Source: a virus
Reading direction: 5' to 3' (one strand)
Virus record (IMG/VR): IMGVR_UViG_3300037493_000930
Span: 1-24,933 of that record
Length of the DNA: 24,933 bases
Under the pieces are notes generated by a model. The model did no database searches. It was not told the DNA's origin and saw only the letters and a program-made list of their open reading frames with translations. Numbering within the stretch: position 1 is the stretch's first letter; every line of letters starts with the position of its first letter. This document shows positions 4,760 to 23,315 of the stretch, piece after piece. The position numbers were made by a program, and so were the translations under genes.

Positions 4760-6010
4760 ATGGCACTTTCAATTTTAGACGGCACACAGACGGCAACCAC
4801 GCTCTCAACCATCCTTTCTAGTGGGCAACATATCACCGCCCATACGGTTGTTAGCCTTGGAACTCAAGCAATTACAGATATAGTCAATGCCACTTCTGCT
4901 GGATTGACTAATACTCAACTTCGAGCAAATGCGGTGACGATTGCTGGTACGGTAACTGCAAATATAGGTGGTATTGCAAATAGCGTAACCCTGCCAGTTC
5001 GTCTTATTGCTGAAAGAACTGGTGGAGCACCAACTGGCGAAGATACTTTGCTGACTTGTAACTCAAGTGGGATGTTGTTAATCGACGCACAATCCGCCGG
5101 AACATCAGTTTTAGGTTTTGATGGAAATGCCTTTGTGCAAGTAAAGCCAGTTTCTGGCTCTTCTGTAACGATTGGCAACAGCGTCACCATCGGCTCGCTT
5201 CCTGCCATTTCTGGAACGGTGACGGCCAACGCTGGACAAGTGGTAGTTGATCAAGGAGGTGACCCAGTTGACCCCAGTAATCCATTCCCGATCTTTGGCA
5301 CAGTAGACATCACAGCCCTCCCCGCTGGCACAAACCGCATCGGAGTGGTGACGATTGGAGCAGGGACAGTCACACTTGGAGCAGGCACAGCACAGATTGG
5401 AAGCGTCACGGCCAGCATCAGCGGGACAGTCCCAGTCAGCATCTCCTCCGTCACGGTTGGCAATAGCGTCACCATCGGATCGCTCCCCGCAATTAGCGGT
5501 ACGGTGACGGCGAATGGTGGGGACGGCACTTTTCTTGTTGGAGGACTTCGCTCGGGAGGAAAAACTGCCTTACAACTGGATACTGGAACTGGCTATTTGC
5601 AGACAAAAGTTGAGTCGCTCCCGTCATTGGTCGCTGGCACAGCCCAGATCGGCTCAGTCACCGCATCCATATCGAACAGCGTCACGATTGCGTCGCTCCC
5701 TGCAATTAGCGGGACAGTCACCGCCAACACCTTCGCCTTGCAAGGCACGGCAGTTACCACATCTAACTTTACCAGCACAACCGCCTCTACGGTGCTTGCT
5801 AATTTCAATGCGACAAGGGAAGTGCTAACAATTTTTAACGAGGGGGCTGGCAATCTTCACATCTGTGCAGGGGCAACTTGCACCACCATCGCTTACCAAG
5901 TTCGCCTATCAGCGGGTGACTACTACGAAGTTCCCAATCACCAAACGAGCATCACCCACTCGGCTGTGTTTGCCACCGCAGGCACGGCTAGGGTGACGCA
6001 AATTAGCTAG
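4760..6010 (+). CDS. Repetitive tail fibre / receptor-binding protein
   Basis: A 416-residue Ser/Thr/Gly/Val-rich protein with no long helices, as expected of trimeric fibres. The module NSVTIGSLPAISGTVTAN recurs at about residues 140-157, 235-252 and 306-323 (the last with A for G), and GTAQIGSVTASIS occurs twice. A partial copy is at 57-68. The last 80 residues form a distinct globular-looking end (ATREVLTIFNEGAGNLHI, VRLSAGDYYEVPNHQ, GTARVTQIS) similar to C-terminal knob domains seen on phage fibres. AAGGAG lies about ten bases before the ATG. Likely exposed on the virion and binding the host surface; it could also be a head-decoration fibre given its early position. Confidence 0.65.
   Translation: MALSILDGTQTATTLSTILSSGQHITAHTVVSLGTQAITDIVNATSAGLTNTQLRANAVTIAGTVTANIGGIANSVTLPVRLIAERTGGAPTGEDTLLTCNSSGMLLIDAQSAGTSVLGFDGNAFVQVKPVSGSSVTIGNSVTIGSLPAISGTVTANAGQVVVDQGGDPVDPSNPFPIFGTVDITALPAGTNRIGVVTIGAGTVTLGAGTAQIGSVTASISGTVPVSISSVTVGNSVTIGSLPAISGTVTANGGDGTFLVGGLRSGGKTALQLDTGTGYLQTKVESLPSLVAGTAQIGSVTASISNSVTIASLPAISGTVTANTFALQGTAVTTSNFTSTTASTVLANFNATREVLTIFNEGAGNLHICAGATCTTIAYQVRLSAGDYYEVPNHQTSITHSAVFATAGTARVTQIS
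5177..5728 (+). repeat. Three dispersed 54-base coding repeats in the fibre gene
   Basis: Units at about 5177-5230, 5462-5515 and 5675-5728 encode the same 18-residue fibre module. Many copies differ at third positions (for example CTTCCTGCC against CTCCCTGCA for Leu-Pro-Ala), so the protein repeat is conserved more strongly than the DNA. That points to selection on a structural repeat and not to a recent slippage event. Confidence 0.7.
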
Positions 6011-7612: not shown

Positions 7613-7987
7613 ATGACCGAAGCCTATTGGGGAACGACTAATATAAAAGTAGCGAGTGCCGTTGCTTCCTTTGGTGCAAAGCCGAGACAGCTAGACTCGG
7701 TAACGAGGACTATAAAAGAGGATGGAAGCACCCAAGCAACCTTCTGGTTCGAGGCTGGGGCAGGGGCAGAGGCCAAGGCAGAAATGGAACGCACTTGGGC
7801 AGAAATGAAAAGCGACCCAGAAAGCCCAATCCGATATGTGCGTGCCGCCTTGGAGAACCGAGAAACCTTCCTAGGACTACTTAAAAGAGCCGTGCCGGTG
7901 CGGGTGATACAAAGGGGCGGGCAGACTTTACTCATATCAGAAAACGCAACCTCGGAACAACGAAGGGCAATCCTAAAGCATCTATGA
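7613..7987 (+). CDS. Hypothetical tail-region protein
   Basis: A 124-residue protein with an N-terminal beta region (NIKVASAVASFG, LDSVTRTIKEDG, STQATFWFE), a basic/acidic helical centre (AEAKAEMERTWAEMKSD) and a helical end. It has no recognised family. It ends in an ATGA overlap with the tail assembly chaperone gene, so it is probably co-translated with it. A GAAATCCT box sits six bases before the start, where a ribosome site would normally be. Confidence 0.5.
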   Translation: MTEAYWGTTNIKVASAVASFGAKPRQLDSVTRTIKEDGSTQATFWFEAGAGAEAKAEMERTWAEMKSDPESPIRYVRAALENRETFLGLLKRAVPVRVIQRGGQTLLISENATSEQRRAILKHL

Positions 7988-8364
7988 GCATATCCCTAGA
8001 AGAAGAACTAAACTCGGCCTTTATCTCCCCACAAAAGGAGTTTATGGGTGAAAAACTAGCCCCCTACACGGAAGGCTCAAGGTTGCTCCTTTTGCAAGTA
8101 AGGGACGATAACGACTCATCAATCTATTTTATCTGGTCGTTTATCTATGTGCACATTCTCCTAGCCAAGAATAAGAAGGATGCAATTAAGCTATGCTGGA
8201 ACAAGGACTTGTTCCGTGAAAAGATAATGGAATATATCGAAGGCAAGACAGAGGCAGACCGAGAAGTTGCCACAACCATCGTCTCTAACATCTTGGACGA
8301 AGCCCAGAAGGGGAAAGTGGATGTTATCCCAGCCCCGCACCAGCCCGACTTGGGAAACGCCTAA
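7984..8364 (+). CDS. Tail assembly chaperone, short form (G-like)
   Basis: A 126-residue mostly helical, acidic protein. It lies two genes before the tape measure and is followed by a second frame in the -1 phase that can only be joined by frameshifting. This is the arrangement of lambda G and GT, chaperones that coat the tape measure before tail polymerisation. No sequence motif of a named family is obvious, but the location and the frameshift element at 8352-8401 make the assignment firm. The C-terminal sequence PAPHQPDLGNA is a flexible linker, as expected just before a frameshift site. Confidence 0.78.
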   Translation: MSISLEEELNSAFISPQKEFMGEKLAPYTEGSRLLLLQVRDDNDSSIYFIWSFIYVHILLAKNKKDAIKLCWNKDLFREKIMEYIEGKTEADREVATTIVSNILDEAQKGKVDVIPAPHQPDLGNA

Positions 8365-8401
8365 CGCCAGCGGGAACAGCAAGTTTCGTGTTCTCGTTGG
8401 C
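8352..8401 (+). promoter_or_regulatory. Programmed -1 ribosomal frameshift element
   Basis: The heptamer GGGAAAC at 8352-8358 is read in the upstream frame as G GGA AAC, the canonical X XXY YYZ phase, two codons before the TAA at 8362. Seven bases later a 13-pair stem begins: 8366-8378 pairs with 8389-8401, with two G-U pairs and a ten-base loop. Spacing, phase and structure all match known -1 frameshift signals; lambda uses the related GGGAAAG at the same place in gene G. Confidence 0.85.
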
Positions 8402-8570
8402 TGAACGAACTGGTTGGAGCATAGACTATATCTTATGGGACATTCCTTTGGCCTTAATCACCCAAGCAACCCATACCTACCTATGGCAAAATGGGGTGAA
8501 GTGTAGGCGAGTGCTTACAGAGATAGGCGAGGATAGGGCAAACCTAGAGAGGCTATTGGGCTTAACATAA
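8358..8570 (+). CDS. Tail assembly chaperone, frameshift extension (T-like)
   Basis: This frame is open from 8289 to its stop at 8570 and is -1 relative to the upstream chaperone. Slippage at 8352-8358 would join it after residue 125 (LGN), giving a fusion of about 195 residues whose second part reads RLTPAGTASF and then SLAERTGWSIDYILWDIPLA. Helical stretches with TYLW and RANLERLLGL follow. Independent initiation is possible only at the GTG at 8388, inside the predicted stem-loop. In tailed phages the long form bridges tape measure and tail tube subunits. Confidence 0.75.
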   Translation, partial: RLTPAGTASFVFSLAERTGWSIDYILWDIPLALITQATHTYLWQNGVKCRRVLTEIGEDRANLERLLGLT

Positions 8571-8580
8571 GGCAAAGAAT

Positions 8581-9369
8581 ATGATTACCGTGGAGCTATT
8601 AAACCAAGCCAAGTTTATGCACAAGCTCCAACAATACCAGCAAGTATCTAAAAAGAATATGGCCGATGTAATAAATCAGAAGCTCGGTGATGTTGCCGTT
8701 ACCGCTATTGGGACTACCTACCGAACCAACACGGCACAGATAGCCTCTGAACTTCAACGAGTAGAAAGCCAAGTTGTGACCAAGAAAGTGTTTAAGCCAT
8801 TTGGCCTTACAAAGTCTGGTAAGGTTAAGAAGCGTAAGATCGGGGAGTATGCGGTTGGATTTAAGGCCAAATCAGTAAGCTATGCTGGAACATATAAGCT
8901 AGTGAATTGGTTGTTAAAAAACCGAGGATTGCCAACGCTAGGAAAAACAAAGCAAGGAACTGGTGGGCTTGGTATGGGCAACACACCCGGAACGATTGGG
9001 GCATTGGCTCGAAGGCTAGTGGCTGGAAGAAAGCGATCAGTTAATTATATTAGGAACGGATGGGCGGCGGCGGCGGCTGTATTCGGGAAAAGGGCAAGCC
9101 TTACTAGGGGAGATTATAGCCAAAAAGCAATTCAAAGACTTGGTGGTGGAACAAAGGCAGACAGCAAGAAAAGCCAAATGGAAGGGATTATCTTTAATCG
9201 TGCTGGCGATCTTGACACAAGGTACTACCCAGTAAGGAAGAGACCTATTTCTGGTGCGGTTAAGGTCGGCGTTCCGGGTCTTAAAATGGCTATTGATAAG
9301 GTAATGAAGGATATGAATGTTTATCTTGCTCGAAAGAACAAAGAGGCAAGTGACAAACTGAAATTGTAA
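8581..9369 (+). CDS. Basic tail-region protein between chaperone and tape measure
   Basis: A 262-residue strongly basic protein (many Lys and Arg, for example SGKVKKRKIGEYAVG and RRLVAGRKRSV). It has an N-terminal helical segment (LNQAKFMHKLQQYQQVSKKN), a glycine-rich linker (GKTKQGTGGLGMGNTPG) and an alanine-rich stretch (NGWAAAAAVFGKRAS). No family recognised. In this position other phages have minor tail or tape-measure-associated proteins. It starts 11 bases after the chaperone stop with AAGG before the ATG. Confidence 0.5.
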   Translation: MITVELLNQAKFMHKLQQYQQVSKKNMADVINQKLGDVAVTAIGTTYRTNTAQIASELQRVESQVVTKKVFKPFGLTKSGKVKKRKIGEYAVGFKAKSVSYAGTYKLVNWLLKNRGLPTLGKTKQGTGGLGMGNTPGTIGALARRLVAGRKRSVNYIRNGWAAAAAVFGKRASLTRGDYSQKAIQRLGGGTKADSKKSQMEGIIFNRAGDLDTRYYPVRKRPISGAVKVGVPGLKMAIDKVMKDMNVYLARKNKEASDKLKL

Positions 9370-15155: not shown

Positions 15156-15518
15156 ATGACATCCGAACAAGGCGTGGAGAAAGCAACTCAAAAACATTTT
15201 ACCAAAAAGCACGAACTCCATTTAACGACTTTGCAAGTTGCGGCGGTTGAGTCGATGGATAAAAAATACAAGCGGGGGGTTGAGGAACACGGCGGGACAA
15301 AACTTTGGGAGATGCCGGCAGTAAAACTGGTTGAGAACGCAATCGAAGAAGCAACCGACCAGCTAACCTATCTGCTCACGCTTCGTTCCCAAATGCACAT
15401 AGTTCTGGAATTAGCTAGGGATGGATGCACAGACGAGACATTGACAAATCCTAGAGCTAGAGAGTGTTGTCACCTTATTTACACAACATTGACTGGTCAA
15501 TCTAAACCTCCTTTATGA
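15156..15518 (+). CDS. MazG-like nucleotide pyrophosphohydrolase-like protein
   Basis: A 120-residue helical protein. The core KYKRGVEEHGGTKLWEMP (residues 38-55) and ENAIEEATDQLTYLLTL (60-76) carry the E..EE..D pattern of a helical metal site like that in all-alpha NTP pyrophosphatases (MazG, DR2231). If active it would cleave NTPs or dNTPs to monophosphate and pyrophosphate; the exact substrate is not visible. It follows the endolysin by four bases and overlaps the phosphoesterase gene by ATGA. Confidence 0.5.
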   Translation: MTSEQGVEKATQKHFTKKHELHLTTLQVAAVESMDKKYKRGVEEHGGTKLWEMPAVKLVENAIEEATDQLTYLLTLRSQMHIVLELARDGCTDETLTNPRARECCHLIYTTLTGQSKPPL

Positions 15519-16255
15519 AGCCCATTAAATTCGTCGCTTGCGGTGACATTCACGGCGACGAACAAGATGCCCCTTCGGTGAAGGCTCTATTGGCCTTTAC
15601 TAAAGAATACCAGCCCGATCTAGTAGTTTGCATTGGCGATCTCTGGGACTTCCGAGCAATCCGAAAAGGGGCAGGGGATGAGGAGCAAGCGTCCAGTTTG
15701 CAGAAGGATTGGGATTGTGGGGAGGAGTTCTTGCGGGAGTTCTTCAAGTTCGGAGATGAGAGAATCTTTTTGAGGGGCAACCACGATGAACGCATATATG
15801 ATATGGCTCGCAACAGCCGAAGCGGAGTGTCTCGTGACTACGCCAACGATGGGATTGAAAATATCGAGCAGATAATGAAGGACACCAAGGCAAGGATGTT
15901 CCCTTATGATTCAGTCGGTGGGATTTACAAGTGTGGCAACCTATCCTTCGTTCACGGGTACGGACACGCTATGCACAGCGGGAAGCAACACGCCGATGCC
16001 TATGGAGATGTTATCTTCGGCCACACCCACGCCATTGATTATTTCCGTAGCGTCTCCATCGACCCCCGCACCGGGTTTAATATAGGTTGTTTATGTAATA
16101 AAACTCCTGAATACAACAGAGGACAGTTGCGTAGGCTTCGATGGCAACACGGCTGGGCTTTTGGTATGATCTACCCCGACAAAACCCACGATGTTTTTCA
16201 AGCAAGACAGAGAGGCAATAAGTTCCATCTCCCAACAAACATAAAATCCTTCTAA
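15515..16255 (+). CDS. Calcineurin-like metallophosphoesterase
   Basis: A 246-residue protein with the complete set of metallophosphoesterase motifs in order: ACGDIHGDE (residues 8-16), CIGDLWDF (39-46), LRGNHDERI (about 86-94), FVHGYGHAMHSG (about 147-158) and FGHTHAID (about 169-176). These bind two metal ions and hydrolyse phosphoester bonds; phage members have been linked to nucleic acid or cyclic nucleotide cleavage. The substrate is not determined. The start is in an ATGA overlap with the previous gene. The eleven bases across its start, ACCTCCTTTATG, resemble the 16S rRNA anti-Shine-Dalgarno tail, probably by chance. Confidence 0.8.
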   Translation: MKPIKFVACGDIHGDEQDAPSVKALLAFTKEYQPDLVVCIGDLWDFRAIRKGAGDEEQASSLQKDWDCGEEFLREFFKFGDERIFLRGNHDERIYDMARNSRSGVSRDYANDGIENIEQIMKDTKARMFPYDSVGGIYKCGNLSFVHGYGHAMHSGKQHADAYGDVIFGHTHAIDYFRSVSIDPRTGFNIGCLCNKTPEYNRGQLRRLRWQHGWAFGMIYPDKTHDVFQARQRGNKFHLPTNIKSF

Positions 16256-21474: not shown

Positions 21475-21737
21475 TTGCGATGGTTGAAACAGAGCAGTTC
21501 GAGTTGCCTTTTATGCGAACCACTCACCCACAAAAGACGGAAGGCCACGACCAGAACGCTAGAATCCTAGCCCACTTGCAGGCTGGGCGAACACTCACGG
21601 CTCTGGAAGCGTTGGAATGGTTCAAGTGCTTTAGACTGGCAAGCCGAGTGTGCGACTTGCGGAAGGCTGGGCATCTAGTCGAGAAGCGAACCATCAAGAC
21701 GAACAGTGGAAAGAGCGTGGCGGAGTATTATTTATGA
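21471..21737 (+). CDS. Helix-turn-helix (winged) protein
   Basis: An 88-residue protein. After a short linker it shows the phage winged-helix pattern ILAHLQAGRTLTALEALEWF, LASRVCDLRKAGHLVEKR and a wing strand (KSVAEYYL). Such proteins lie next to replication genes in many phages and may act in DNA binding. It starts and ends by ATGA overlaps, the last of which contains the start of the Mom-like gene. Confidence 0.6.
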   Translation: MIAMVETEQFELPFMRTTHPQKTEGHDQNARILAHLQAGRTLTALEALEWFKCFRLASRVCDLRKAGHLVEKRTIKTNSGKSVAEYYL

Positions 21738-22462
21738 GTTTTGGCGGCGATAGCTCAACAGTAGAGCTTCCCCTATTCCAAGGGGAGGATGGCGGTGCAA
21801 TTCCGACCTCGCCGCTCCAACTTTTATTTAGGCCAATAACAAACCACACGGCAAACCTTGTGGCAGTTGAAAGCCATTACGCTCACAGAAAAGCACCTAT
21901 AACTTGGGCATTCGGAGCGTTCTTTAATAACAATCTGGTTGGCATAATTACATTTGGAAAGCCACCATCACAACATTTGTGCATTGGAGTTTGTGGGCGA
22001 GAAAACCAAGAAAGGGTATATGAATTAAATAGGCTTTGGATGAATGACATTTGCCCGAAAAACTCTGAAAGCAGATTCATCGGTTGGGCATTAAGGGAGT
22101 TAAGCAAAATAAAGCCACCACTAATAATAGTAAGCTATGCAGACACGGAGCAAAACCATTCTGGCATAGTTTATAGATCGACAAATTGGATTTATACTGG
22201 GCAAACAAAGCCAGTTTTAGAATACCAAGTTAAGGGAATTAAAATGCACAGCAAGACGGTGTCGAATAGCGTTGGTCAATCCACCGACAAAAAAAGCAAA
22301 AAGCAAATGCTGGAAGAACTTTATGGCGATAATTTTTATATGAAAGAACGGAGCAAAAAGCATCGGTTCGTTTATTTTTGCAATCCAAAGGACAGAATGC
22401 TTCTGAAGTGGGATGTAGAACAACCCAAAACCACCCCTTGCATCAACCAAGACTCAAAGTAA
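21734..22462 (+). CDS. Mom-like DNA modification protein
   Basis: A 242-residue GNAT-fold protein similar to phage Mu Mom and related phage proteins, which modify adenine in DNA (methylcarbamoylation in Mu) and protect it from restriction. Characteristic segments are ESHYAHRKAPITWAFGAFF (46-64), LVGIITFGKPPSQHL (68-82), YELNRLWMNDICPKN (96-110) followed by SESRFIGWALREL, and VSYADTEQNHSGIVYRSTNW (133-152) with IYTG. An extension at 160-200 is lysine-rich and a C-terminal HRFVYFCNPKDRMLLKW resembles the end of other members. ATG is in an ATGA overlap. No separate com-type activator is recognisable nearby. Confidence 0.68.
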   Translation: MSFGGDSSTVELPLFQGEDGGAIPTSPLQLLFRPITNHTANLVAVESHYAHRKAPITWAFGAFFNNNLVGIITFGKPPSQHLCIGVCGRENQERVYELNRLWMNDICPKNSESRFIGWALRELSKIKPPLIIVSYADTEQNHSGIVYRSTNWIYTGQTKPVLEYQVKGIKMHSKTVSNSVGQSTDKKSKKQMLEELYGDNFYMKERSKKHRFVYFCNPKDRMLLKWDVEQPKTTPCINQDSK

Positions 22463-22474
22463 GTTGCAAATTCG

Positions 22475-22771
22475 ATGAATGAATCCTATGTATCCGCAGA
22501 GGCCAAGGCCAATGGCATCCTTTCCGACCGCTACCCCGGCAAGGAACTGGAAAAACTTTACGCCACGACCCGCAACCAAGCGACCATCGATATGTTGAGG
22601 GATGCCGTGTTCACTCTAATCACAAACGAAATCCCCACTTGCACGATTGCCGAAGTGCTAAAGAAAACCCACGGAGCAATACAGTACCACCTACGATATT
22701 TGGAGGGCAGGGGCAAAATCAAAAGGCCAAACAAGCGATGTCATTGGACGGAGGTGAAGCGTGAAGATTAA
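22475..22771 (+). CDS. Winged-helix-like protein
   Basis: A 98-residue protein. A helix-turn-helix is formed by AVFTLITNEIPTCTIAEVLK and HGAIQYHLRYLEGRGKI with a basic wing (KRPNKRCHWTEV). Its architecture suggests a transcriptional regulator or DNA-binding accessory. Follows the Mom-like gene by 12 bases; ends in an 11-base overlap with the next gene. Confidence 0.5.
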   Translation: MNESYVSAEAKANGILSDRYPGKELEKLYATTRNQATIDMLRDAVFTLITNEIPTCTIAEVLKKTHGAIQYHLRYLEGRGKIKRPNKRCHWTEVKRED

Positions 22772-23315
22772 CAAGATGGAAGCCAAGGCAATCGAGGCAC
22801 AGATCGACAAGCTCAAGACCCCGATTGACAACGAGCAGGGCAAAAGAACCAAGGGAGACGAATCCCCATCGAGACGCTACCGCCATTTGTGCGAGCGACT
22901 CCACTTCTTAACGATGAAAAAAGCACTCATCATCCTAGCCATCACGCTCTTATGCTCAAGCCAAGCGGCGAACATAATGATCGAAACCCCAAAGCCACCA
23001 GCCAAGAAAACCATCAAGGCCAGAATCACGGCCTACTGGTTAGGCGAGGACGAGTTCGGGTGGAAAAGCTCAACTGGAAAACGGTTAGTCTCTGGCAAGT
23101 CTTGTGCAGTAGACCCCAAAATCATCCCCTACGGAACGACCCTACTCATTGAGGGCAAGGCATACCACGCACACGATACTGGAACGGCGGTTATCTCACG
23201 GAAGGCATCGGGCAAAACCAAGCTCCCAGTTATCGACCTTTTCTATGCCAGCGAACGGCAAGCTAGGCGGGAGTTGGCAAGGGTGGGACGGACAGCAGTG
23301 GTTGAAATCCAATGA
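22761..23315 (+). CDS. 3D-domain protein with internal signal-anchor
   Basis: A 184-residue protein. The GTG at 22761 has an excellent GGAGGTGAAGC ribosome site. Residues 1-51 are charged and helical; residue 52 is an internal Met (base 22914) opening a signal-like segment, MKKALIILAITLLCSSQAA. The C-terminal 3D domain (named for three Asp) is clear: ARITAYW (87-93), AVDPKIIPYGTTLLIEG (116-132), YHAHDTGTAV (135-144) and VIDLFYASERQARRELA (157-173), with D118, D139 and D159. Such domains are found in peptidoglycan-active proteins. The long form would be an inner-membrane protein with the enzyme outside; the short form could be secreted. Confidence 0.65.
   Translation: MKINKMEAKAIEAQIDKLKTPIDNEQGKRTKGDESPSRRYRHLCERLHFLTMKKALIILAITLLCSSQAANIMIETPKPPAKKTIKARITAYWLGEDEFGWKSSTGKRLVSGKSCAVDPKIIPYGTTLLIEGKAYHAHDTGTAVISRKASGKTKLPVIDLFYASERQARRELARVGRTAVVEIQ

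Follow-up and report, generated by a model that had tools for sequence, protein, structure and literature searches.

An RNA element in the tail gene cluster of an uncultivated phage is almost certainly a −1 programmed ribosomal frameshift signal, joining two overlapping frames that would together encode a tail assembly chaperone of the λ G/GT type. The element lies in a stretch of 24,933 nucleotides (IMG/VR record IMGVR_UViG_3300037493_000930; hereafter the window) and consists of a slippery heptamer, a short spacer that holds the zero-frame stop codon, and a stem-loop (Table 1). Below, G denotes the product of the zero frame and T the domain encoded in the −1 frame.

Table 1. Coordinates of the frameshift element and adjoining genes in the window
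Feature	Position	Strand	Basis
Zero-frame ORF, 126 aa, gpG-like tail assembly chaperone (putative)	7984-8364	+	IMG/VR homologues; hhalign to MAG G proteins
Slippery heptamer G_GGA_AAC	8352-8358	+	Phase from sequence; XXXAAAZ in 83/83 distinct junctions
−1 frame (T domain), 72 codons counted from heptamer	8352-8570	+	Translation; viral homologues, protein alignments
7-nt spacer, containing zero-frame TAA stop (8362-8364)	8359-8365	+	Sequence
Stem-loop, arms 8366-8378 and 8389-8401, loop 8379-8388	8366-8401	+	RNAfold, recoding, alignment pairing
262-aa protein between T and presumed tape measure gene	8581-9369	+	Place matches ~270-aa ORFs of L134 and L137
Presumed tail tape measure protein, 480 aa	9371-10813	+	Position; same-place ORFs in L137 and L134 match PHROG

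Results

Heptamer and reading frames

The G frame ends with the codons TTG (8350), GGA (8353), AAC (8356), GCC (8359) and TAA (8362), in agreement with the G GGA AAC phase proposed in a preliminary description of this DNA. That description had placed the heptamer two codons before the stop; its proximity to the stop stands, but a single sense codon precedes the TAA. The spacer of seven bases, the −1 phase of the second frame, its opening across the site and the length of the fusion (125 + 70 = 195 residues) were all found as described. By count the heptamer is not unusual (three copies of GGGAAAC in the window against 4.4 expected), so its significance comes from phase, place and conservation. 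A second heptamer, GGGAAAG at 8311-8317 on the same strand, lies 41 nt upstream and was discarded as a shift site because the chaperone frame reads it as GGG AAA G, a phase unsuited to −1 tandem slippage.

Relatives were drawn from IMG/VR and from Verrucomicrobiota MAGs and number over 80 distinct ones. Homologues of G were found at 50 IMG/VR loci. T had homologues in at least 172 viral stretches, from which 80 loci were retained; many contigs are common to the two sets. Alignments of the viral homologues show that T is conserved as a protein. Conservation of the heptamer, suggested earlier as a check, proved complete: XXXAAAZ is present in the same phase in all 83 distinct junctions, 75 of them of GGG type and 8 of CCC type, in the forms GGGAAAC, CCCAAAC, GGGAAAT or GGGAAAA. 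The A-site codon is AAC in 81 junctions, AAT in one and AAA in one. The glycine codon within the heptamer is GGA in 75/75 cases (codon usage 0.20) and the proline codon CCA in 8/8 (codon usage 0.43). Six different residues (P, L, S, Q, V and E) occur at the codon whose third base opens the heptamer, and this base matches the heptamer in 83/83 junctions, where about 0.30 per sequence would be expected; because the junction sequences are related, these counts do not translate into a formal probability. The residue before the heptamer is free to change, and the last base of its codon is not. In all readable relatives the zero-frame stop is found at +7 or +10 from the start of the heptamer, and the −1 frame spans 71-77 codons except where the contig ends. 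Among the relatives examined, none combines both frames with loss of the heptamer or of the stem.

A maintained stem that also encodes T residues

When positions 8359-8410 were folded with RNAfold, as had been suggested, the program returned exactly the 13-pair stem of the preliminary description, with a free energy of −21.5 kcal/mol (z −3.3); one in 200 dinucleotide shuffles was as stable. As the −1 frame runs through the stem, stability was also assessed by recoding with synonymous −1-frame codons (34 distinct junctions, 500 recodings each). The native stem of the window is more stable than 496 of 500 sequences encoding the same −1-frame protein, the other four doing as well or better. In every one of the 34 junctions the native sequence exceeded the mean stability of its recodings (z −2.0 to −4.6), and at most 21 of 500 recodings were as stable in any of them. 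Among 62 distinct sequences, 88% of cells are paired across the 13-pair helix and 98% across a nine-pair core; when one arm is displaced by 1-3 columns, these values fall to 30-54% and 24-49%, respectively. RNAalifold found the core helix independently. A −1 frameshift element is expected to have a maintained stem 5-9 nt downstream of the heptamer, and the present stem, conserved and 7 nt away in the window, agrees with this. An H-type pseudoknot between UUCG in the loop (8385-8388) and CGAA (8406-8409) found no support, the bases being paired in only 40% of cells, below shuffles. An Rfam search gave no match.

The pair 8371-8396, formed by the middle base of T codon 7 and the third base of codon 15, is C-G where residue 7 is alanine or threonine and G-C or G-U where it is glycine (83/83). 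The codon used for residue 15 switches with the partner base: GTG in 4 against GTC in 17 for valine, TCG in 30 against TCT in 3 for serine, and ACG in 14 against ACC in 2 for threonine. This pair underwent at least four changes on a tree from whose construction the stem region was left out. Compensation was seen in all three contrasts on supported branches, a result that is not significant alone since a sign test with three pairs cannot reach 0.05. The covariation that the preliminary description suggested looking for is present, synonymous switches in the second frame included, and its independent events are few.

These data bear on the view that heptamer and hairpin are by-products of coding for the PAG...SLA and GN motifs, with a second frame that is decaying or separately expressed and no frameshift taking place. 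The arms do encode conserved T residues (P6, A10, L16 and A17). However, the stability of the stem is lost on synonymous recoding, codon 15 and the codon preceding the heptamer have third bases fixed beyond what the amino acid demands, and T is kept as a protein in many phages where it has no start codon of its own. We regard this explanation as very improbable.

Access to the second frame

The preliminary description took GTG 8388 to be the only independent start of the second frame and to be buried in the stem. This codon is indeed near the stem, but G8388 is the last base of the loop, which puts the GTG at the loop/stem border, and in-frame TTG codons are also present at 8397 and 8448. Ribosomes ending at TAA 8362 could conceivably reinitiate at GTG 8388, which lies 24 nt past the stop in the window and is a GTG at the equivalent codon in 29 of 63 distinct junctions. 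In the other 34, however, this codon is GTA, GTC, GTT, CTC, CTT, TTG or TTT, and several relatives (L022, L035-L037, L074, L083, L116 and L122) lack any in-frame ATG, GTG or TTG over a stretch that extends 60 nt upstream and 120 nt downstream of the heptamer. Lack of conservation of the GTG and lack of a start codon in these relatives exclude independent initiation as a general route. Reinitiation would also leave the conserved heptamer unexplained, and the conserved T-frame residues KRLTPAGTAS are encoded upstream of position 8388. Translation of T by this path thus seems highly unlikely, and frameshifting, the route originally proposed, is favored by a second frame that has no conserved start of its own among relatives.

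Polymerase slippage, as usually seen, needs longer runs than three G and three A. Transcriptional slippage, or a +1 or −2 ribosomal shift, instead of −1 slippage is a negligible prospect here given the canonical phase and form of X_XXY_YYZ, the stem 7 nt downstream, and a +1 frame that closes 22-70 nt from the stop in many relatives, even though other modes exist in some phages (PMC5009743); nothing specific points to them in this element.

Gene neighborhood and protein identity

The two overlapping frames are flanked by small tail genes and by a tape measure gene, the latter assigned by position in the window; this layout agrees with the place of a λ-type G/GT pair between the tail tube and tape measure genes. 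ORFs at the tape measure position in L137 and L134, two of the MAG contigs, match PHROG tape measure families; a PHROG search with the 480-aa protein of the window found no match. BLASTP detected no similarity between the 262-aa protein and the ~270-aa ORFs of L134 and L137, and gave E 0.003 for the small tail ORF of the window against L137. Homology between the neighboring proteins of the window and those of L137 was not detected by BLASTP, so that apart from G and T the synteny with L137 is positional. Searches of Pfam and PHROG with G and T returned nothing convincing, the best PHROG score being T against phrog_11996, a family of unknown function (E 0.0024), and INPHARED phages searched with G, T and two neighboring proteins gave no match. 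An AlphaFold2 model of G from a 20-sequence alignment is mostly helical (pLDDT 80). A fold search with this model produced no confident PDB match and one weak match to an uncultured-phage model (probability 1.0, E 0.016). Since no library names the proteins, their assignment rests on architecture and position: from gene order, the two-frame layout and synteny with the tape measure genes of relatives, we infer that G and T form a tail assembly chaperone, in line with the preliminary description of chaperone frames joined by a −1 signal.

Elsewhere in the window, all on the + strand, are a Mom-family protein at 21650-22462 (Pfam PF25680, E 1e-41), encoded by a type of gene for DNA modification (anti-restriction) and related to proteins in 295 phage records; a 416-aa protein at 4760-6010 that may be a fibre or surface protein and contains repeats such as SVTIGSLPAISGTVTA; a calcineurin-like phosphoesterase at 15515-16255 (PF00149, E 2e-9); and a 3D-domain protein at 22761-23315 (PF06725, E 3e-7).

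Discussion

The heptamer, its phase, the stem and their conservation are properties of the sequences themselves, and from these we infer slippage and its frequency. Most ribosomes would translate the gpG-like chaperone and end at TAA 8362. A minority, paused by the hairpin while the GGA and AAC tRNAs occupy G_GGA_AAC, would slip one base back onto GGG_AAA and continue with CGC CTA ACG to position 8570, yielding the G-T fusion with its second domain. By analogy with λ, coating of the tape measure protein may fall to the short form and recruitment of the tail tube protein to the long one. One could go further and imagine that the shift is coupled to termination, the stop always standing zero or one codon past an AAC-type heptamer, within the spacer that precedes a deeply conserved hairpin. 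The ratio of G to G-T might then be set jointly by slow termination in the host and by the hairpin, and the RNA element would dictate residues of the T domain; we offer this as a speculation of rather low probability.

A −1 shift in the G/GT tail chaperone genes is a widely conserved arrangement (PMC5009743). As in λ gpG/gpGT, where the heptamer is GGGAAAG, the proposed shift takes place near the end of the chaperone gene and gives a short and a long product, and the chaperone gene comes just before the tape measure gene (PMC5009743). The present case differs from λ in having AAC rather than AAG as the A-site codon, a stop no more than one codon past the heptamer, one gene that separates T from the presumed tape measure gene, and no match to a named chaperone family. 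The A-site codon AAC is reported to be much less slippery than AAG in Escherichia coli, as judged by comparing A_AAA_AAC with A_AAA_AAG (PMC5009743), and this weakness counts against a frameshift explanation here. GGGAAAC is the slippery site reported for the tail chaperone genes of Caulobacter phage Colossus (PMC3556154) and haloarchaeal virus HCTV-1 (PMC5009743), both likened to the present site by the reported heptamer. In Burkholderia phage KL1 (gp18/gp19), GGGAAAC stands immediately upstream of the zero-frame TGA, with a predicted stem-loop and a single gene standing between this pair and the tape measure gene (PMC3483164). The junction described here thus belongs to a known kind of shift site. 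Profile comparison found no protein similarity between KL1 gp18 and G, and the T part of KL1 is longer (264-aa fusion). Two genomes, and no family-wide test, underlie the prediction of the KL1 site, as against 83 distinct junctions here. New in the present case are an uncharacterised lineage, its likely host phylum, an unusually complete comparative record and a stem in covariation with residues 7 and 15 of the T domain.

Scanning genomes with the T domain identified five Verrucomicrobiota MAG contigs, from Akkermansiaceae, Chthoniobacterales, Verrucomicrobia, Pedosphaera and Chthoniobacter. Their G domains are very diverged (hhalign to the 126-aa family: probability 92, E 7e-7). The junctions have the same layout: the heptamer is CCCAAAC or GGGAAAC, the stop falls at +7 or +10, and the stem is strong. 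L134 and L137 also share the gene order, up to recognizable tape measure genes. The shared junction and gene order point to Verrucomicrobiota as hosts, and the phage group probably infects this phylum, a proposal made from the MAG relatives and not from the window record itself. The tail modules on these contigs (L133-L137) may belong to prophages or to co-binned phage contigs. The notion that AAC is used because host tRNA-Asn is free of queuosine (hypomodified) found no support, as all five MAGs carry a TGT gene.

For a large group of uncultivated phages outside the named families, this work provides a corrected gene model with two products and a clear frameshift signal. The natural alignment of 83 junctions shows an RNA hairpin limiting the choice of codons and amino acids in the protein sequence that hosts it. 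It also reveals that AAC-ending heptamers, held to be weak in E. coli, have been kept almost exclusively in one phage lineage.
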